A stretch of DNA of 64,000 bases from NCBI RefSeq assembly GCF_005938215.1, contig NZ_VCPD01000002.1:248001-312000 (forward strand), in the 5' to 3' direction. Origin of the DNA: Ruegeria sediminis (GTDB lineage: Bacteria > Pseudomonadota > Alphaproteobacteria > Rhodobacterales > Rhodobacteraceae). This document shows positions 5,499 through 51,422 of the stretch, in pieces. Both the position numbers and the translations under genes were made by a program. The notes under the pieces are model-generated. The model was not told where the DNA came from and searched no databases. It saw nothing but the letters and a program-made list of their open reading frames with translations. Each line of letters begins with the position of its first letter. Position 1 is the first letter of the stretch.

Positions 5499-7961
5499 AT
5501 GCGTCTTCTTTTTCGCTGGCTAATGCGCATTGCCGCCGGTCTCGTGGTGCTGGTGGTGGCGGTCATCGCCCTGGTCTATTTCCTCGCCAGCCAGTCCCTT
5601 CCCGATTACGACCAGACGGTAAAGGTGGACGGCCTTGCCGCCCCGGTCGAGATCGTCCGCGACAACGCCAACGTCCCGCACATCTTCGGCGAATCCGACC
5701 CAGACGTGTTCTTCGGTCTTGGCTATGCCCATGCGCAGGACCGGCTGTGGCAGATGACCGTTTTGCGGCGCACCGTTCAGGGGCGCCTGTCCGAGATCTT
5801 CGGCCAGCGCACCGTCACCGTAGACAAGCTGCTGCGGCGGCTCGATCTCTACCGGCTGGCGCTGCAATCCGTCGAGGTGCAGGACGACTACACCAAGGCC
5901 GCGCTCAGGGCCTATGCGGATGGCGTGAACGCCCGTCTGGCCGAAATCAACGACGAGGCATTGGGCCGCGGCGCGCCCGAGATGTTCCTGTTCAACATCC
6001 CCGTCGCCCCCTGGCAGCCCGGCGACAGCCTGGCGATCATCAAGCTGATGGGGCTTCAGTTGTCCGGCCATCTCGAGGAAGAGGTGCTGCGCGCGCGGAC
6101 CTCGCTGATGCTCGACGATCCGGCCCGGCTTTCGGACATTCTGCCCGACGTTCCCGGCAGCGGCATCGCCGCCCTGCCGGAATATGCCGCGCTGTTTCCC
6201 GGCGCGCAGCGCTTCGCATCGGCCGCGCCCATGCCGGACGATCCGCTGTCGCCCTTCCCCCGCAGGGGCCTTGCCGGCGCGTCCAACGCCTGGACAGCCG
6301 CGCCCTCGCGGTCGGCCAGCGGCGGCACCCTTCTTGCCAACGACCCGCACCTGGGCTTCACCGCGCCGGCGATCTGGTACCTTGCCCGCCTCGAACTCGC
6401 CAATGGCGGCGTGATCGGCGCCTCGATTCCCGGCGTGCCCGCCATCATGGCCGGGCGCAGCGACCGTCTGGGCTGGGGGCTGACCTCGTCCTATCTGGAC
6501 GACCAGGATCTCTACATCGAAAAGCTCAACCCCGAGAACCCCGAGGAATACCTGACGCCGGACGGCTACAAAAAGTTCGACTCGCGCCCCTCGATCATCG
6601 ACATCAAGGATGCGCCGCCGATCACGTTGACCCTGCGCTGGACGGAAAACGGGCCGGTGCTGCCCGGCACCTTCTACGGTCTCGAAACCATCACCCCGCC
6701 GGGCCATGTCGTGTCGCTGTCCTGGACGGTGCTCAGCCCGCGCGACACGTCGATGTCCGCCTCGATGGCGCTGATGATTTCCGACGATGTCCAAGGCGCG
6801 ATCCAGGCAGCCGAACGGTTCATCGCGCCGTCGCAGAACCTGTCGCTGGCCGACAGATCGACCATCGCCATGAAGACGATCGGCGCGATGCCCAAGCGCG
6901 ACGCCCGCCACCACAGCCAGGGCCGGATGCCCAGCCAGGGCTGGCTGCCCGAGAACCGCTGGCAGGGCCGGATGCCCTATTCCTCCAACCCGGAATTCGT
7001 CTCGCCCGCCGGCGGCCTGCTGGGCAACACCAACAACAAGATCATCGACCGTCCCTTCCCCGAGCATGTCTCGTTCGTTTGGGGCGACACCCAGCGGGTG
7101 CATCGCTGGGAAAAGCTGATGCAGGACCGCGAGGTGCACACCCGCGACAGCTTCATCGAGGCGCAGCTGGACACCATCAGCTTCACCGCCCGTTCGCTGC
7201 TGCCGCTGATCGGCGCCGACCTGTGGTTCACCGGCGAATCCGCGCCCGAAGGCACGCCCGAACGCCAGCGCCAGATAGCCCTTGCGCTGCTGGCCGAGTG
7301 GAACGGCGAGATGAACGAATACATGCCCGAACCGCTGATCTACGCCGCGTGGCTCCGCGCCCTGCAGAAGCGCCTGATCGCAGACGATCTCGGCCCGCTG
7401 GCCGAGGAGTTCAAGCACGTCGAACCGCTCTTCATCGAAAGGGTCTACCGCGACATCGACGGCGCCTCGGCCTGGTGCGACGTCAAGCAGAGCGCGCCGG
7501 TGGAAACCTGCACAGACATGGCGCGGTTGGCCCTGAACGATGCGCTGGTCTGGATATCCGAGCGGCACGGAACCGCCCTTGAATCCCTGCGCTGGGGCGA
7601 CGCGCACCAGGCGACCCACGATCACCAGGTCCTGGGAGAGGTGCCGCTGCTGCGCTATTTCATGAACATCCGGCAATCCACCAGCGGCGGCGACAACACC
7701 CTGCAGCGCGGGCGCAGCTCGGGCGAGGATCCCGATCCGTTCCTGAACGTACATGGCGCGGGCTACCGCGGCGTCTACGACTTTGCCGATCCCGACAGTT
7801 CGGTCTTCATCACCTCGACCGGGCAGTCCGGCCATTTCCTGTCGCGCTACTACGACGATCAGGCCCAGCTCTGGCGGCGCGGGGAATACATCCCCATGTC
7901 GCTCGACACCGATCTCGCCCGTGCCGCCGCCGTCGGTGTGACGCAGCTGGTCCCGCGCTGA
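5499..7961 (+). CDS. Penicillin acylase-family N-terminal nucleophile hydrolase
   Basis: An 820-residue member of the Ntn-hydrolase amidase family that includes penicillin G acylase and acyl-homoserine-lactone acylases. It has an N-terminal membrane/signal helix (residues 8-30), an alpha-chain beginning VPHIFGESDPDVFFGLGYAHAQDRLWQM, and the autoprocessing site GASNAW, where Ser262 would become the N-terminal nucleophile of the beta-chain. GTLLANDPHLGF follows, as usual. Likely periplasmic. Substrate (beta-lactam, AHL or another amide) cannot be decided from sequence. A GGGGAG ribosome site precedes the ATG. The antiporter gene starts 3 bases after the stop, implying co-transcription. Confidence 0.92.
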   Translation: MRLLFRWLMRIAAGLVVLVVAVIALVYFLASQSLPDYDQTVKVDGLAAPVEIVRDNANVPHIFGESDPDVFFGLGYAHAQDRLWQMTVLRRTVQGRLSEIFGQRTVTVDKLLRRLDLYRLALQSVEVQDDYTKAALRAYADGVNARLAEINDEALGRGAPEMFLFNIPVAPWQPGDSLAIIKLMGLQLSGHLEEEVLRARTSLMLDDPARLSDILPDVPGSGIAALPEYAALFPGAQRFASAAPMPDDPLSPFPRRGLAGASNAWTAAPSRSASGGTLLANDPHLGFTAPAIWYLARLELANGGVIGASIPGVPAIMAGRSDRLGWGLTSSYLDDQDLYIEKLNPENPEEYLTPDGYKKFDSRPSIIDIKDAPPITLTLRWTENGPVLPGTFYGLETITPPGHVVSLSWTVLSPRDTSMSASMALMISDDVQGAIQAAERFIAPSQNLSLADRSTIAMKTIGAMPKRDARHHSQGRMPSQGWLPENRWQGRMPYSSNPEFVSPAGGLLGNTNNKIIDRPFPEHVSFVWGDTQRVHRWEKLMQDREVHTRDSFIEAQLDTISFTARSLLPLIGADLWFTGESAPEGTPERQRQIALALLAEWNGEMNEYMPEPLIYAAWLRALQKRLIADDLGPLAEEFKHVEPLFIERVYRDIDGASAWCDVKQSAPVETCTDMARLALNDALVWISERHGTALESLRWGDAHQATHDHQVLGEVPLLRYFMNIRQSTSGGDNTLQRGRSSGEDPDPFLNVHGAGYRGVYDFADPDSSVFITSTGQSGHFLSRYYDDQAQLWRRGEYIPMSLDTDLARAAAVGVTQLVPR

Positions 7962-9596: not shown

Positions 9597-10868
9597 CTAC
9601 AGGGCGGCGTACTGCGCCTGCTGCTTCGGCGTCCACAGCACCGTGATCTCGAAACCGTCCTCGGTCTGGTTCTCGGCCTGCACGACATCCTGCTGAAACA
9701 GCCACGCGCGCTTGCGGCCTTCGTCAAAGCCCAGCCGCAGAACCTCTTCGTGGCGAACCCCCTGCAGCTTTTCGGCAATGCTCGCCAGCAACGGCTGCAC
9801 CCCTTCGCCGCTCACGGCCGATATGGCGAAAACCTCGGGGTCCCGCGCGGCGCGCGCCAGCACCGCGGTACGGTCCTCTTCGGCCAGAAGGTCGATCTTG
9901 TTCCAAACCTCAAGGCGGCCGCGATCCTCATCGACGCCCAGCGAGGACAGGATCGCCTCGACATCCTGCGCCTGCGCCTCGGTCTCGGCATGGCTGATGT
10001 CGCGCACGTGAACGATCAGGTCGGCGCCCAGAACTTCCTCCAGCGTGGCGCGGAAGGCCGCGACCAGCTCGGTCGGCAGGTTCGAGATGAACCCCACCGT
10101 GTCCGACAGGATGACTTCGGGCCCGTCGGGCAACTCGACCCGTCGCATCGTCGGGTCCAGCGTGGCGAACAGCATGTCCTTCGCCATCACTTCGGCCCCG
10201 GTCAGGCGGTTGAACAGCGTCGATTTGCCGGCGTTCGTGTAACCCACCAGCGCCACGATCGGATAGGGCACCTTGGCGCGCGCCGCCCGATGCAGGGTTC
10301 GCGTCTTGACCACTTTCTGCAACTGCCGGCGCAGGCGCACGAGTTGCTCGTCGATGGCGCGGCGGTCCGCCTCGATCTGGGTTTCACCCGGGCCGCCCAC
10401 GAACCCCAGCCCGCCGCGCTGCCGCTCAAGGTGGGTCCAGGCCCGCACAAGGCGCGTGCGCTGATAGCTCAGCGCCGCCATTTCGACCTGAAGCACGCCC
10501 TCGCGGGTGCGTGCGCGATCCGAAAAGATCTCAAGGATCAGGCCCGTGCGGTCCAGGATCTTGACCTTCCATTCCCGCTCCAGGTTGCGCTGCTGAACCG
10601 GCGTGACCGGCCCGTCGATCAGAACCAGTTCGATCTCGCCTTCGCGAAACCGCGCGCCAAGCTCCTCGATCTTGCCGCTCCCGAACAGAAGGCCCGGCTG
10701 CGCGCGCGGCAGTCGCACGGTTTCCGACCCGATCACATCCAGATCGGGCAGCGCCGCAGCCAATGCCACAGCCTCCTCCAGCGCCGGTTCGGGTGGCCGG
10801 CGCTCATTGTCTGACTTGATATCGGGATGCAGCACCCAGGCGCGGGTGCGCACCCTGTCATGTTCCAT
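9597..10868 (-). CDS. hflX: GTPase HflX
   Basis: HflX is a ribosome-associated GTPase that rescues or splits stalled 70S ribosomes, especially under heat stress. The 423-residue protein has the N-terminal HflX domain (GSGKIEELGARF, LIDGPVTPVQQRNLE), then QRGGLGFVGGPGETQIEADRR, and the G domain: G1 GYTNAGKST, G3 DTVGFISNLP and G4 NKID. Its ATG overlaps the hfq stop by one base (TGATG), so translation is coupled. A TTG one codon upstream is less likely. Confidence 0.96.
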   Translation of the reverse strand: MEHDRVRTRAWVLHPDIKSDNERRPPEPALEEAVALAAALPDLDVIGSETVRLPRAQPGLLFGSGKIEELGARFREGEIELVLIDGPVTPVQQRNLEREWKVKILDRTGLILEIFSDRARTREGVLQVEMAALSYQRTRLVRAWTHLERQRGGLGFVGGPGETQIEADRRAIDEQLVRLRRQLQKVVKTRTLHRAARAKVPYPIVALVGYTNAGKSTLFNRLTGAEVMAKDMLFATLDPTMRRVELPDGPEVILSDTVGFISNLPTELVAAFRATLEEVLGADLIVHVRDISHAETEAQAQDVEAILSSLGVDEDRGRLEVWNKIDLLAEEDRTAVLARAARDPEVFAISAVSGEGVQPLLASIAEKLQGVRHEEVLRLGFDEGRKRAWLFQQDVVQAENQTEDGFEITVLWTPKQQAQYAAL

Positions 10869-47036: not shown

Positions 47037-47711
47037 ATGAAGCAATTCGTGAACCGGGCCGAAGCCGGCAAAAACCTGGCCTCGGCGCTTGGCGAAATGA
47101 ATCTGATCGACGCGCTGGTGCTGGCGCTGCCGCGCGGCGGCGTTCCGATCGGGATCGAGATCGTTCGGGCGCTTCGCATCCCGATGGACCTGATCATGGT
47201 CCGCAAGATAGGGGTGCCTTCGCAACCGGAACTGGCCGCCGCGGCAATCGTGAACGGTGACGATCCGCAGGTCGTCATCAATTCCGGTGTCGCAAGGGCT
47301 TTTGGACTGACCGGCGATGACATCGACCGCATGGCGGCAAGGCAATTGACCGAGATCCAGCGCCGCCGACAGATCTATCTGGGCGAACGGGCGCAAGTGC
47401 CGGTCGAAGGGCGTACCGCCATAGTCGTCGATGACGGTATCGCCACCGGCGCAACGGTCCGGGCCTCGCTCAAGGGCCTGAAGCGCCGGAAGCCGGCGAG
47501 GATCTTGCTGGCGGTTCCCGTAGCCCCCCAGGATACGCTTGCCGAACTGCGCGGTGACGTAAACGACATCATCTGCCTGGAAACGCCCGAACCATTCTGG
47601 GCGATTGGCGCGCATTATTCCGACTTCTCGCAGACCTCGGACGAAGAAGTGGTGCAGTTGCTGGACGAAGCGAATGCGATCCGCTCGGGCGGCGAAACAT
47701 CCAACAAGTGA
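47037..47711 (+). CDS. Phosphoribosyltransferase-domain protein
   Basis: A 224-residue type I PRTase-fold protein with the PRPP motif TAIVVDDGIATGATVRASL and the pyrophosphate loop ALPRGGVPIGIEI. It matches the group often fused to or next to dienelactone hydrolases and annotated only as phosphoribosyltransferase; the acceptor base is unknown. AAAGGAG lies eight bases before the ATG. It is the last intact host gene before the split tRNA-Leu and the inserted element. Confidence 0.85.
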   Translation: MKQFVNRAEAGKNLASALGEMNLIDALVLALPRGGVPIGIEIVRALRIPMDLIMVRKIGVPSQPELAAAAIVNGDDPQVVINSGVARAFGLTGDDIDRMAARQLTEIQRRRQIYLGERAQVPVEGRTAIVVDDGIATGATVRASLKGLKRRKPARILLAVPVAPQDTLAELRGDVNDIICLETPEPFWAIGAHYSDFSQTSDEEVVQLLDEANAIRSGGETSNK

Positions 47712-47739
47712 TCAACGTCGAAAGCATGACCAAAAGGCT

Positions 47740-47886
47740 TCACTCGGCGGCCAGTTTCTTTGGCGAGACGTCGTCGATCAGTTGTTGCAACTCGGGCCGG
47801 CAGGATCCGCAATTGGTGCCTGCGCTAAAAAATGGGCGATCAGGCTGTCGGGCATGTATGCTGCAATAGCAGCAATGGGCCAGCAT
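47740..47886 (-). pseudogene. Remnant of a BFD-type [2Fe-2S] domain
   Basis: A 48-residue open frame ending AGTNCGSCRPELQQLI and then KKLAAE. This matches the C-terminal half of a bacterioferritin-associated-ferredoxin-like cluster domain, as found at the end of assimilatory nitrate reductase NasA or nitrite reductase. The first C-x-C pair is only about 17 residues from the second pair instead of about 30, and no larger gene precedes it, so it looks like a decayed gene end. Only the C-terminal motif is convincing. Confidence 0.45.
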
Positions 47887-48067
47887 GACACCCATGCCTT
47901 TATGTCATTTTAGGTCGCCGCACATGCCAAAATCGGCCAGAGATTAATTGCTAAGCGGTCTTGCAAATGTCGACGCCAAATTGAGCACCAAGTGCTTTCA
48001 GCCGGGTGCGGCAATCAAGAGGATCAGCTCCACGGAACGCACGCAGTTTCAGTTTTTTTAGACAATG

Positions 48068-48123
48068 TGGTGCCCAAGGTGAGACTCGAACTCACACGCT
48101 GTTGCCAGCGGGGGATTTTGAAT
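48068..48123 (-). pseudogene. 3' half of a split tRNA-Leu(CAA) gene
   Basis: Read on the minus strand, this holds the anticodon loop TTCAAAA, the 3' anticodon stem, a variable arm (CGCTGGCAACAGCG), a perfect T arm (GTGAG-TTCGAGT-CTCAC), acceptor strand CTTGGGC and ACCA. The matching 5' half (acceptor GCCCAAG, D arm, 5' anticodon stem) is 2.5 kb away at 50657-50698. Joined at the shared core, they make a complete tRNA-Leu(CAA). The bases now upstream of this half do not rebuild a 5' half. Confidence 0.88.
48112..48123. repeat. Left attachment-site core
   Basis: GGGATTTTGAAT, the direct copy of 50657-50668. It covers the anticodon loop of the split host tRNA-Leu. Confidence 0.8.
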
Positions 48124-48167
48124 GGCATGCCTTCTCCGTAAGCTATTGTTTTTACTAAAGCGGGCGC

Positions 48168-48212
48168 GTCACCGCGTCACCACCCACGTCACCACTTAAG
48201 TCACCAGTGACG
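48168..48212. repeat. Left-arm GTCACC repeats (possible integrase arm sites)
   Basis: GTCACC occurs at 48168, 48176, 48188 and 48200, spaced 8, 12 and 12 bases, ending in AAGTCACCAGTGACG (48198-48212). The same 15-mer appears inverted at 50437-50451. In a circularised element both clusters would flank the core in opposite orientation, as tyrosine-integrase arm sites do. Confidence 0.6.
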
Positions 48213-48267
48213 CGGGCATATCTGACAGGGGATTAGGTGTCCCCCTGCGTGTCTGTTGTGGGACTGC

Positions 48268-48654
48268 TCAGACGTCCCCCTTGAAGGAGCGCCCGAAGGT
48301 ATCCATCATGTCCTGCAGCCGGTCGAAAGCAGGGTCGCCCCGGTGGAGGCCCTCATCGAACATCAACGTCATGACCTGGATAAGCTCATCGTAGACCGGG
48401 CCGTAGACGTACCGCATCATCCTGCCCCGCGCATCTGCGATGAGTTGGATACGGGCGTCACTCGTCATGTTTGGGTTGACCGCGATCTGGGTGCCTATGC
48501 GGGCCTCGACCCGGTAGACCTCGTTGAAACCGAAGTCCACCACCTCAATGGTGCCCTTGGCGTCGGCGTAGAGGCCCAGAGTGGTTGGAGAGGGGCGAGG
48601 CAAACGGGTTGCTGTGCGGGTGCCTTCGAAGGCCCCGGCCATAGGTAGCTGCAT
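48268..48654 (-). CDS. Element protein A, unknown function (128 residues)
   Basis: A 128-residue soluble protein with no family I recognise. It begins MQLPMAGAFEGTRTATRL and has an acidic, helix-rich C-terminal part (LIQVMTLMFDEGLHRGDPAFDRLQDMMDTF). AAAGGA lies seven bases before the ATG at 48654. It is the last gene before the left end of the element, 17 bases downstream of the intact tRNA-Leu on the same strand, so it may share that transcript. Confidence 0.65.
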   Translation of the reverse strand: MQLPMAGAFEGTRTATRLPRPSPTTLGLYADAKGTIEVVDFGFNEVYRVEARIGTQIAVNPNMTSDARIQLIADARGRMMRYVYGPVYDELIQVMTLMFDEGLHRGDPAFDRLQDMMDTFGRSFKGDV

Positions 48655-48671
48655 GGGATTTCCTTTGGGGG

Positions 48672-48755
48672 TGGTGCGGGTGGCCGGACTCGAACCGGCA
48701 CACCTTGCGGTAAGGGTGTTTGAGACCCTCGCGTCTACCATTCCGCCACACCCGC
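48672..48755 (-). tRNA. tRNA-Leu(CAA), intact, carried by the inserted element
   Basis: A full cloverleaf folds by eye: acceptor GCGGGTG/CACCCGC, D stem GCG/CGC, anticodon stem AGGGT/ACCCT with loop CTCAAAC (anticodon CAA), a variable arm ACC-GCAA-GGT, T arm GCCGG-TTCGAGT-CCGGC, and an encoded ACCA end. It reads the Leu codon UUG. Its acceptor and arms differ from the split host tRNA-Leu(CAA), so it is not a copy of it. It is transcribed on the same strand as the element's genes, between proteins B and A. Confidence 0.95.
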
Positions 48756-48801
48756 AGCGGGGATGATCTAGTTGGACGCGAGGGTGAGTGTCAAGGGTTG
48801 A

Positions 48802-49044
48802 TCAGGCGTCTTCGACCCACTTCATGAGGGACGGATAGAAACCCTCAAAGGGGTCAATCTGGGTCAGGCCTAAGTAGTAGCCGAGCGGAACCCGGCCCAA
48901 CCGACCATCGTCGCGGTTCTTGACCATGTGGATTTCCACCTCGCCACACTCACCGCTGCGCTTCAAGAGGGCAACTGTATGGGCGCGGCTCATGTCCTCC
49001 AAGCTGACCTCCGAAAGGTCTGTGGTTTGGATGTGCATGCTCAT
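48802..49044 (-). CDS. Element protein B, unknown function (80 residues)
   Basis: An 80-residue acidic protein starting MSMHIQTTDLSEVSLEDMSR and ending in GLTQIDPFEGFYPSLMKWVEDA. AAAGGAAG lies six bases before the ATG at 49044. The ATG overlaps the restored-frame stop of gene C as ATGA, which supports both genes and marks a frameshift in C. No homologue recognised. Confidence 0.65.
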   Translation of the reverse strand: MSMHIQTTDLSEVSLEDMSRAHTVALLKRSGECGEVEIHMVKNRDDGRLGRVPLGYYLGLTQIDPFEGFYPSLMKWVEDA

Positions 49045-49441
49045 GCTGCTTCCTTTCTCTCGTTCCATTCGTTGAGTGCCACCAGCGCCAGATCGAGGCT
49101 GCTGGGGGACAGGTGGGGTAGCGCGTCTTGATGTGCGCAGGGGCCTCGACCCGCAGTACCGGAAGGCCACGGCAGCGGGCCCGTACAGCCAGCGTCTTGC
49201 CGTCCTTGACGGTGTCATGGATGGGGTCGTGGATGAGGTCCAGCGCCTCGGGGTTGGTCTTGCTCAGGTAGGACAGAACCGTGTCGAACCCCTCAATGCC
49301 AATCTCGAAGTCAGGCTTCTGGGTCGGGGCCAGTTCACGTTCAAGGGCGAACAGCTGGTTCTGGACCAAGCCGATGCTCATACCGTAATGCATGGCCGTG
49401 CGGATGCTGCGGACGCGGCTGATGGTGTCTTGTGCATTCAT
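49041..49441 (-). pseudogene. Element protein C, apparent single-base frameshift
   Basis: It starts MNAQDTISRVRSIRTAMHYGMS with AAAGGAG eight bases upstream. The frame codes sensibly to about HIKTRYP near 49118. After that the original frame runs into nonsense overlapping gene B, whereas the -1 frame reads HLSPSSLDLALVALNEWNERKEAA and stops as ATGA on the gene B start. Restoring one C in a CCCC run (49115-49118) would give an intact protein of about 132 residues. It could be a mutation, a sequencing error or programmed slippage. Family unknown. Confidence 0.6.
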
Positions 49442-49471
49442 GGAAATGCTCCTTTCAGGGAGACTTAGGGG

Positions 49472-49501
49472 TAAAAGAAAAGAACCTCAGGAGAGAGGTT
49501 C
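49472..49501 (-). terminator. Terminator after the MarR-like element gene
   Basis: A seven-base perfect stem, GAACCTC/GAGGTTC with a six-base loop, followed on the minus strand by TTTTCTTTT. It overlaps the stop codon of the winged-helix gene. Confidence 0.8.
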
Positions 49502-49843
49502 CAGTAGTTTCGAGGCGAGTTGCCTACCCTTCACAGTGAGGTAGATCAGTTTGGCCCGTCTGTCTTCGGGGTTCTCGACCCATTCGATCAGGTTCAATCC
49601 GGGTTTGCCCAGCCGGTGAACCTTGGAGAGCGCCGCGAGGTTACGCGAAGCTGTGGAGGAGAGCATGTCCAGATCGCGCCGTAGATCGACCTGTGTCTTG
49701 CCTTCGTTCAGGGCTGCCCAAAGGAAGACCAGCGCCTGCTGAAGGGGCATGTTTTCGTCTATGTCTCGGAGCTTGCTACAGACCGCGAAGATAGAGCGGA
49801 AGGAACGCCGGTCGCTATCGTTGCTGAATGTTTGGGTGGGCAT
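49487..49843 (-). CDS. MarR-like winged-helix protein of the element
   Basis: A 118-residue putative DNA-binding protein. The body VFLWAALNEGKTQVDLRRDLDMLSSTASRNLAALSKV is a helix-turn-helix, followed by a wing-like NLIEWVENPEDRRAKLIYLTVKGRQLA, the pattern of MarR regulators. Similar small MarR-like genes occur among early genes of T7-like marine phages, to my recollection. TAGGAGA lies before the ATG at 49843. It ends in its own terminator, so genes C, B, the tRNA and A probably have a further promoter or depend on read-through. Confidence 0.78.
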   Translation of the reverse strand: MPTQTFSNDSDRRSFRSIFAVCSKLRDIDENMPLQQALVFLWAALNEGKTQVDLRRDLDMLSSTASRNLAALSKVHRLGKPGLNLIEWVENPEDRRAKLIYLTVKGRQLASKLLEPLS

Positions 49844-49860
49844 GATCTTCTCCTAGTTTC

Positions 49861-50145
49861 TTACATAACCGTGCCCATCCACTCGATGGGCGTGAACCCG
49901 GCTGCATGTGCTGCTGCTCCTCCGATCAGAAAGAGCAATGCACACAGCCACTTGGTACATTTCGACCGTTTACCAAACGACCTAGGGTTGTCAAAGAAAT
50001 TTGTGTGCGTGACGGCAAATTTCCCGAGGTCGTAGATAACCTGCCTCTCGTCGAGGCGTTCAACCTTTACATCCGACCACCGAGCGAGGCGGTCGTACTC
50101 GACAACCGTTTCCCGGCTGCCATATTCTACTGCTGCTAATATCAT
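49861..50145 (-). CDS. Element protein E, small C-terminal membrane protein (94 residues)
   Basis: A 94-residue protein with a charged N-terminal part (VEYDRLARWSDVKVERLDERQVIYDLG) and one membrane helix near the C-terminus (WLCALLFLIGGAAAHAAGF). The ATG at 50145 is preferred over an in-frame TTG four codons upstream. It overlaps putative gene F by 86 bases. Function unknown; small membrane proteins are frequent among phage early genes. Confidence 0.55.
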   Translation of the reverse strand: MILAAVEYGSRETVVEYDRLARWSDVKVERLDERQVIYDLGKFAVTHTNFFDNPRSFGKRSKCTKWLCALLFLIGGAAAHAAGFTPIEWMGTVM

Positions 50146-50266
50146 CCGTATCCCCAATACTAAACGAAAGTCGGCGGGTGCAGTGCTTCGTCCCCGCTAC
50201 CTGTCCGTCGTTTAGTTCAGCCCCGAGTGCAACCAGATATGGTATCACTACGGGACTGTGTGTCAT
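50060..50266 (-). CDS. Possible element protein F (68 residues)
   Basis: An open frame starting MTHSPVVIPYLVALGAELNDG, whose ATG overlaps the stop of the upstream micro-ORF as ATGA. That coupling is the main support; its C-terminal third overlaps gene E in another frame and looks less natural. No family. Confidence 0.3.
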   Translation of the reverse strand: MTHSPVVIPYLVALGAELNDGQVAGTKHCTRRLSFSIGDTDDISSSRIWQPGNGCRVRPPRSVVGCKG

Positions 50267-50337
50267 ATTATCGTCATCTCATTCTCAAGGTCTTGCTGCT
50301 GCAAGATCAAGTCTTCGGCTGGCTTCACGGCTTCCAT
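50263..50337 (-). CDS. Possible 24-residue leader/micro-ORF
   Basis: Codes for a 24-residue acidic helix (MEAVKPAEDLILQQQDLENE, then four more residues). AGAGGAAG lies six bases before the ATG, the strongest ribosome site in the element, and the stop overlaps the next ATG. It sits just downstream of the tandem promoter-like repeats, so it would be the first translated frame of the transcript. Confidence 0.4.
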   Translation of the reverse strand: MEAVKPAEDLILQQQDLENEMTII

Positions 50338-50360
50338 GTATCTTCCTCTTTGGGGGCTGC

Positions 50361-50400
50361 CCTTTAGGTGAACCTTAAGGTGACCCTTAATGTGTGAACC
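50361..50400 (-). repeat. Tandem 12-bp repeats resembling T3/T7-type promoters
   Basis: On the plus strand CCTTTAGGTGAA, CCTTAAGGTGAC and CCTTAATGTGTGAA follow head to tail. Read on the minus strand the last unit is TTAAGGTTCACCTAAAGGG, close to the phage T3 promoter core TTAACCCTCACTAAAGGG with one extra base. It points toward the element's genes, 24 bases before the first ATG. It could equally be a repressor operator. Confidence 0.5.
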
Positions 50401-50436
50401 TCAGGGCTAAGGTGTGGGTAGTTGACTTCAGAGCCA

Positions 50437-50518
50437 CGTCACTGGTGACTTGCTGGTGACTTGCGGTGACTTGATCCACCCGTGGAGAGGTGGCGCACCC
50501 GTCACTCAAGGTGGTGAC
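50437..50518. repeat. Right-arm GGTGAC repeats (possible integrase arm sites)
   Basis: GGTGACTTG occurs three times at 50444, 50455 and 50465, and GGTGAC again at 50513. The segment begins with CGTCACTGGTGACTT (50437-50451), the exact inverse complement of the left-arm 15-mer. The 50338-50656 stretch otherwise holds no gene I can support. Confidence 0.6.
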
Positions 50519-50656
50519 GTACTCCCCTGCAGATGCTCCACCTGTGCAGACTTCGGGACATGCGAAAAGAGACCTAACGCGCTGTTAGGGCTACACTTTC
50601 CGTCTCCATCTGGTGGATTGCTGCCTGTGTGGAGGGTTGCCGCACTGCAGCGGCTC

Positions 50657-50668
50657 GGGATTTTGAAT
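50657..50668. repeat. Right attachment-site core
   Basis: GGGATTTTGAAT, the direct copy of 48112-48123, at the anticodon-loop end of the 5' tRNA half. A hairpin (GCCGC/GCGGC) lies just inside. Confidence 0.8.
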
Positions 50669-50698
50669 CCCCTGCGTCTACCATTCCGCCACTTGGGC
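50657..50698 (-). pseudogene. 5' half of the split tRNA-Leu(CAA) gene
   Basis: Minus strand: acceptor GCCCAAG, then TGGCGGAATGGTAGACGC (D arm), then GGGGA and loop TTCAAAA. The sequence that follows inside the element contains no T arm and no CTTGGGC acceptor, so the tRNA is not restored here. It pairs with the 3' half at 48068-48123. Confidence 0.88.
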
Positions 50699-50843
50699 CA
50701 CGGACACTGCATTAGCGCCCGTGGCGTCGAAGGTCCAGAGGCAAAAATGGTCGATGTACCGACCTTTCTCGGCGACAATGGTTGACCTCCTGCAGACCGC
50801 GTGATTTGCCATTCGCAACACAGTGGAATGGATACCGCACCCG

Positions 50844-51422
50844 ATGCTGCGATCGCTCTATGACTGGACAATCCGTCTGGCCGAACACCCTCAAGCCATG
50901 TGGGCCCTGGCAATCGTGGCGTTCGTGGAAAGCTCGGTCTTTCCGATCCCGCCGGACGTGCTGATGATTCCGATGATCCTGGCCCGCCCGTCCAAGGCGT
51001 GGCTGATCGCTTCGGTGGCGTTGGTTTCGTCGGTTCTCGGCGGGTTGCTGGGATATGCCATCGGCGCGTTCTTCTATGACAGCGTAGGCCAGCCTGTCCT
51101 GCAGGCGATGGGGAAATCCGACGCGATGGAGGCGTTCAACACGCGCTTCAACGATTTCGGCTTCTGGGCGGTGCTGACGGCTGGGGTAACGCCCTTCCCT
51201 TACAAGGTCATAACCATCATGTCCGGCTGGACCGGGATGCCGCTGGGGACCTTTGTCGCCACCTCGATCCTTGCCCGCGCCTTGCGGTTCTTTGCTGTCG
51301 CGGGCCTGCTATGGGGATTTGGCGAACCGATCCGCGATTTCATCGAGAAACGGCTTGGACTGGTCTTCACGGCCTTCATCATCCTTCTGATCGGGGGATT
51401 CATGCTGGTGAAATACCTATGA
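50844..51422 (+). CDS. DedA/YqaA-family membrane protein
   Basis: A 192-residue inner-membrane protein of the SNARE-associated/DedA (YqaA) family, whose members include lipid scramblase-like proteins. Blocks include FVESSVFPIPPDVLMIPMILARP, the re-entrant GLLGYAIGAFFYD and AGVTPFPYKVITIMSGWTGM. The ATG at 50844 matches the family start; a GTG seven codons upstream is in frame but lacks a ribosome site. dsbB overlaps it by four bases (ATGA), so the two are co-expressed. Confidence 0.88.
   Translation: MLRSLYDWTIRLAEHPQAMWALAIVAFVESSVFPIPPDVLMIPMILARPSKAWLIASVALVSSVLGGLLGYAIGAFFYDSVGQPVLQAMGKSDAMEAFNTRFNDFGFWAVLTAGVTPFPYKVITIMSGWTGMPLGTFVATSILARALRFFAVAGLLWGFGEPIRDFIEKRLGLVFTAFIILLIGGFMLVKYL

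Follow-up and report, generated by a model that had tools for sequence, protein, structure and literature searches.

A 2.5-kb insert in the tRNA-Leu(CAA) gene of Ruegeria sediminis as a probable remnant of a temperate T7-like phage

Lysogeny that depends on a phage-borne transfer RNA (tRNA), termed tRNA-dependent lysogeny, was described in 2024 in the actinophages Fionnbharth, LeBron and Gaia, and the experiments reported there demonstrate the principle that a phage tRNA compensates for a broken host tRNA gene (PMC10865867). The need for the phage tRNA was established experimentally in Fionnbharth, and Gaia integrates at tRNA-Leu-CAA through an 8-bp core (PMC10865867). The same account considers a prophage of Lactobacillus johnsonii, Lj965, a likely further case and states that more work is needed on the frequency of the strategy outside actinophages (PMC10865867). 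Two Lo5R7ANS-like prophages of Sinorhizobium meliloti inactivate tRNA-Leu(UAG) and supply a replacement of their own (PMC11476347), by a mechanism described by the same group (PMC12429752). For the phage LUZ100, the tRNA-Leu gene has been read as a trace of past integration, and MarR proteins of the gp0.7 type have been proposed to repress the phage RNA polymerase (PMC10134795).

This study concerns a window of 64,000 nucleotides from Ruegeria sediminis (contig NZ_VCPD01000002.1, positions 248,001 to 312,000), in which an insert of 2,545 bp interrupts the host tRNA-Leu(CAA) gene in its anticodon loop and contains a complete tRNA-Leu(CAA) gene of its own. It is very likely that the tRNA of the insert compensates for the broken host tRNA; this core idea of a first-pass annotation of the same DNA is right and already has a name, tRNA-dependent lysogeny. 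The insert itself is probably the grounded remnant of a temperate T7-like phage with this mode of lysogeny, its tRNA and perhaps a MarR repressor having been kept by selection. A known phage strategy is thereby encountered in an unusually small insert that has neither an integrase nor a phage RNA polymerase.

The split host gene and its attachment site

The insert is bounded by a perfect 12-bp direct repeat, GGGATTTTGAAT, with copies at 48112-48123 and 50657-50668 (spacing 2,545). Repeat searching, comparison with the genus and joining of the flanks place the parts of the host gene, all on the minus strand, as follows. The 5' part runs from 50698 down to 50669 and is followed by the first attachment (att) core copy at 50657..50668, which reads ATTCAAAATCCC on this strand and comprises the anticodon loop and the 3' side of the anticodon stem; the second core copy, at 48112..48123, is followed by the 3' part, from 48111 down to 48068. 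Each part abuts one copy of the core, with zero extra matching bases on either side. Joining the flanks by script restores an intact tRNA-Leu(CAA) gene of 86 bases. Together with about 1.5 kb of upstream sequence, the rejoined gene aligns to all 30 loci examined, a subset of the 53 other genomes of the genus (one locus in two pieces), and ARAGORN predicts tRNA-Leu(CAA) in each of the 30; the downstream flank is unconserved among them.

Neither junction of the insert rebuilds a tRNA according to ARAGORN. A site within a host tRNA gene and a short core, with neither junction reconstructing the tRNA, are hallmarks of tRNA-dependent lysogeny; unlike at an ordinary tRNA-targeted genomic island, the gene is restored at neither end. 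Four genomes of the genus (G395, G400, G418 and G436) contain extra 3' fragments of the same tRNA-Leu(CAA) gene. Their islands share the target with the insert, and in some of them the break zone is similar, but the extra 3' parts suggest that the host tRNA is kept complete, and they look like islands of the usual type. A scar of the usual kind also occurs at another tRNA gene in the R. sediminis genome itself (L044, C12:332600-333200), where another 3' fragment of the same type of gene, at about 347-407, lies beyond an intact tRNA-Gly(UCC) at 195-268.

Clusters of short repeats flank the interior of the insert. Four GTCACC arm-type repeats lie at 48168..48205 and five GGTGAC arm-type repeats at 50379..50518, three of the latter being GTGACTTG (50445, 50456 and 50466); moreover, the 18 nt at 48198-48215 match 50434-50451 in inverted orientation (94%). 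The insert has nine GGTGAC/GTCACC words, each of which falls within 300 bases of its ends, where chance predicts 0.5 (1.9 overall), and none of 5,000 Markov resamples reached the observed number. Judged by their arrangement, these repeats look like paired arm-site clusters that would bind an integrase on either side of a core. Across the genus the pattern occurs in one of 54 genomes, in the element alone. It occurs in 96 stretches of viral contigs, one of which (L133) has the core and at least two repeats within 500 bases; this was taken as chance, with the repeats inside an open reading frame (ORF) and no integrase in the record. The attP-junction pattern was found in no viral contig.

The tRNA of the insert and its viral counterparts

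ARAGORN predicts a single tRNA in the window, tRNA-Leu(CAA) at 48672..48755 on the minus strand, and the same segment matches Rfam RF00005 (58.8 bits, E 2e-11). ARAGORN, Rfam and direct reading agree with the first-pass annotation, which had described a complete tRNA-Leu(CAA) with the anticodon loop CTCAAAC and an encoded CCA. Its further observation that this tRNA differs in sequence from the broken host gene was also borne out: the two are 63% identical, and the anticodon loop of the host gene is TTCAAAA. No promoter is listed for the tRNA by a sigma-70 scan; a TTGACA hexamer lies nearby at 48794-48789 (minus), with a poor second hexamer as judged by eye. A perfect 11-nt inverted repeat (48725-48735 and 48775-48785) pairs the anticodon arm with the region directly upstream of the gene.

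The first-pass annotation had tied its proposal to whether the genome holds another CAA copy. In the own assembly (18 contigs totalling 4.2 Mb, with a completeness rating of 100%), 45 Rfam tRNA matches were obtained, with anticodons assigned by ARAGORN. The leucine anticodons comprise UAA, UAG, CAG and GAG plus the CAA of the insert, and neither these scans nor DNA searches with either tRNA yielded a second CAA gene. However, tRNA-Tyr, tRNA-Ile(GAU) and tRNA-Ala(UGC), which are indispensable in a bacterium, are likewise absent from the list, so the assembly or the scan is incomplete for tRNAs, and the conclusion that there is a single CAA gene is weakened accordingly; assembly gaps, at rRNA operons for two of the three, are probably responsible. 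The whole host gene is matched in all 53 other genomes of the genus at 85-95% identity (one match stops at base 84, where its contig ends), and partial matches in five of them (G403, G406, G411, G414 and G426) proved to be UAA or CAG leucine tRNAs. Among the 16,282 codons of the long ORFs of the window, UUG occurs 182 times and UUA 18 times; since UUG is about ten times as common, a reader of UUG should matter, and tRNA-Leu(UAA) may cover part of its decoding.

Searches of phage sequences, likewise suggested by the first-pass annotation, identified 88 viral stretches that contain a tRNA-Leu(CAA) matching the pattern of the insert's tRNA. One of them, L227, encodes a T7-type RNA polymerase, an integrase of the LUZ100 type (39%) and a tRNA-Leu(CAA) 83.5% identical to that of the insert, with the core GGATTCAAAATCC 9 nt after the tRNA. 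In four viral stretches the CAA core begins no more than 30 nt after a tRNA 3' end. Two of these, L227 and L292, combine an integrase with tRNA-Leu(CAA), the integrase of L292 being 34% identical to that of LUZ100, with no RNA polymerase in the 8 kb covered; in the other two (L291 and L293) a tRNA-Ser and a tRNA-Met precede the core, and there is no related integrase.

The corresponding pattern for the UAG core was found in ten viral stretches. In nine of them tRNA-Leu(UAG) directly precedes the core, and within the stretches covered a related integrase occurs in eight, a MarR match in seven and a T7-type polymerase in three. The two that lack an integrase match are a tRNA array (L308) and a stretch of Lo5R7ANS length with 1,946 bases covered (L311). 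The phage Lo5R7ANS (NC_025431) has a regulator, an integrase, tRNA-Leu(UAG) and then a core corresponding to the Leu(UAG) anticodon region, flanked on either side by GTGAC words. Seven of the nine tRNA-Leu(UAG) stretches have such words close to the core, and L227 and L292 have them near the tRNA and core as well. In L307 (about 9875-10045) and L309 (about 137-294), tRNA-Leu(UAG) and the core are followed by a second tRNA 3' half, and these are, from their layout, apparent integrated T7-like prophages with the same strategy. The judgement that the tRNA of the insert very likely compensates for the host gene is based on its being the only CAA gene found, on the conservation of the host gene throughout the genus, and on the match between isoacceptor and core in the integrase-bearing viral relatives.

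Gene content and missing phage functions

The insert contains five ORFs, all on the strand of its tRNA. At 49487..49843 (minus) lies the gene of a 118-aa MarR-like winged-helix regulator of the gp0.7 type, known from temperate T7-like phages (phrog_9665, E 1e-27; Pfam MarR_2, E 8e-4, under the gathering score). Its relatives include proteins of LUZ100 (40%), pelagiphages and P-SSP7, and 53 phage records match at E ≤0.01; a regulator of this kind is one mark of a temperate T7-like (Autographiviridae) prophage. A terminator-like hairpin directly follows the gene (49481..49502, minus), one of five such sites in the region against 2.5 expected by chance. The second protein with phage kinship is encoded by a 163-aa ORF at 48950..49441 (minus), whose 3' part overlaps the next gene. 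Over 52 aa it shares 50% identity (E 6e-8) with gp10 of the T7-like phage Lo5R7ANS of Mesorhizobium, to which it is related, and it has further matches in L307 and L313. Sequence patterns of the MarR and 163-aa proteins hit 6 and 13 stretches of viral contigs, respectively, and none was confirmed.

The other three ORFs have no convincing family, giving only weak PHROG or Pfam matches at E 0.008 and up. They comprise a 98-aa ORF with a TTG start and no family match (49861..50157, minus), an 80-aa ORF that probably starts inside a listed 138-aa frame (48802..49044, minus), and a 128-aa ORF, with no match in the phage collection, whose likely start lies 17 bases after the tRNA (48268..48654, minus). 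Apart from the MarR gene, three of the four ORFs, including the 80-aa and 128-aa ones, display coding-type codon-position G+C, and the signal of the 98-aa ORF is weak. At the DNA level, the tRNA sequence alone matches known phages or plasmids, so the insert is not a copy of a known one, and no close relative of it was found.

Over most of the protein length, the closest MarR homologue (61%) belongs to Marivivens niveibacter and has a different setting (L294, 3899-5360): the gene follows a tRNA-Phe, the sole tRNA in the 10-kb stretch, and lies near AlpA-like and Cro/CI-like genes (labelled by eye). A scrap at about 4671 that ends in CACCCGCACCA resembles the 3' end of the insert's tRNA, and the locus is possibly another decayed T7-like element. 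One further genome (G017) has a MarR relative (35%) on one contig and a T7-type RNA polymerase on another, with no tRNA-Leu in the parts examined.

A tyrosine integrase of its own, a further hallmark of tRNA-dependent lysogeny, is missing from the insert. Matches to its five ORFs include no integrase family at E ≤1, and comparison with four related integrases gave a best E of 0.024 over 22 aa. The T7-type RNA polymerase that marks T7-like prophages (PF00940) has no match in the insert or elsewhere in the R. sediminis genome; it was found in three of 394 family genomes, in none of 54 genus genomes and in none of 14 control genomes. The genome contains five tyrosine integrases with 24-30% identity to that of L227, and neither core nor arm repeats nor tRNA lie near the two whose surroundings were examined. 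A resident helper phage was rejected on these grounds. Literature searches returned no integrase-less case of tRNA-dependent lysogeny; no satellite lacking an integrase was found either, which is no proof of absence.

Origin of the insert and comparison with known systems

The following course of events would account for the locus. A temperate T7-like phage of the Autographiviridae type would have integrated by tRNA-dependent lysogeny, its tRNA making an integration that breaks the host gene survivable. The integrase, RNA polymerase and structural genes would have been lost later, leaving a 2.5-kb remnant unable to leave by itself. The tRNA, if expressed and charged, would be needed for UUG and so kept by selection. 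The repressor may have been kept as well for immunity to related phages; residual immunity is plausible given the proposed role of such MarR proteins against phage RNA polymerases. The first-pass annotation had called the arrangement addiction-like, with the element's own loss made costly. Its compensation part is supported by the tRNA being the only CAA gene found, the conservation in the genus and the viral relatives, but the cost does not follow, because precise excision would recreate the host gene: exact removal would cost nothing, and only inexact loss of the tRNA would be harmful. With no integrase, precise excision is probably unavailable and the element is locked in.

Several observations weigh against this history. 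The searches turned up no intact relative with the gene order of the insert. The gp10-like gene lies before the MarR and integrase genes in Lo5R7ANS but after MarR in the insert, so a single internal deletion of such a phage cannot yield the insert; in addition, the tRNA of the insert lies outside the arm-type repeats, whereas in Lo5R7ANS and L227 it sits between these repeats and the core. The genes look intact by codon-position G+C and both arm clusters survive, neither of which a decaying remnant need show. Among the 88 viral stretches with a similar tRNA, only L227 has the core within about 900 nt; L275 combines MarR, integrase and tRNA-Leu(CAA) but its covered sequence contains neither the core nor GTGAC words, and L309 and L310 lack GTGAC words nearby. 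None of 385 alphaproteobacterial genomes has the Leu(CAA) core at most 30 nt beyond a tRNA 3' end, so this tight arrangement at the CAA site is rare there; the insert does not fit the pattern either. Finally, the function of its tRNA is a prediction, and wobble pairing could allow tRNA-Leu(UAA) to read UUG.

Some of these observations suit a different origin, which we regard as possible but unlikely: a minimal integrase-less satellite, consisting of a complete attachment site, a regulator and a substitute tRNA, for which the enzymes of a T7-like helper would provide integration, excision and perhaps packaging. The core with both arm clusters, the co-directional and mostly coding-like genes, the gene order unlike that of phages and the lack of clear integrase or RNA polymerase debris all speak for it. 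Against it stands the MarR protein, which is present once in its own genome and has just 16 weak matches in 393 other family genomes (32-43% identity over parts, best E 8e-16), while relatives in genome contigs are limited to the Marivivens protein and one of Chitinophaga (71% over 24 aa). The absence of a T7-type polymerase and the distant integrases of the genome likewise offer such a satellite no helper. The fuller version, a satellite of T7-like phages that borrows the helper's integrase, holds the helper back by its MarR repressor and brings a replacement tRNA, is doubtful; if true, it would unite tRNA-dependent integration and trans-mobilisation in 2.5 kb.

Phages often carry tRNAs, and the tRNA of the insert could be an ordinary translation helper or an anticodon-nuclease decoy that shares its anticodon with the host gene by coincidence. 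The divergent anticodon loops and the 87 of 88 viral contigs with no core near a similar tRNA would agree with this. Yet the isoacceptor matches the attachment core in two of the four CAA stretches (L227 and L292) and in nine of the ten UAG stretches, and here the host gene is destroyed with no other CAA gene found, which makes coincidence improbable. It is far less credible that the insert acts as a self-splicing intron and is cut out of the RNA, the host tRNA still being produced. The anticodon loop is where tRNA group I introns sit, but no Rfam intron family matches 47700-51000 at E ≤1, and the 12-bp direct repeat with its arm-type repeats fits site-specific recombination; an intron, of group I or otherwise, was rejected as its fold lacks Rfam support.

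Read as a phage remnant, the locus suggests a ratchet, in which integrase loss would trap the element as soon as no copy but the phage tRNA exists, and the host tRNA would be permanently replaced by that of the phage. Foreign tRNA genes between tRNA halves would, on this prediction, be fossils of old lysogeny. Together with the viral contigs in which integrase, tRNA-Leu and core stand in a row, for CAA as for UAG, the locus also points to a recurring layout of temperate T7-like phages, which would extend beyond the two published Sinorhizobium cases.

Among the described systems, Gaia shares the Leu-CAA isoacceptor with the insert; the actinophages, as described, are complete phages with an integrase (PMC10865867), whereas the insert has none, measures 2.5 kb, and belongs to a T7-like lineage in a non-actinobacterial host. 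The Sinorhizobium prophages are closer, being likewise in Alphaproteobacteria, integrated within a tRNA-Leu gene that they inactivate and equipped with the same isoacceptor; they differ in using UAG rather than CAA and in retaining an integrase and a full phage genome (PMC11476347). LUZ100 and Limnohabitans phage YIMV22061, T7-like phages of the temperate type, cluster MarR, integrase and tRNA-Leu before the phage RNA polymerase; unlike the insert, they are complete and carry the UAA isoacceptor, located beside the integrase at 2658-2743 (L097, LUZ100) and 6604-6692 (L100, the Limnohabitans phage), where it may serve the same purpose for UAA. Lo5R7ANS shares with the insert the gp10-like and MarR genes and the GTGAC words around the core.
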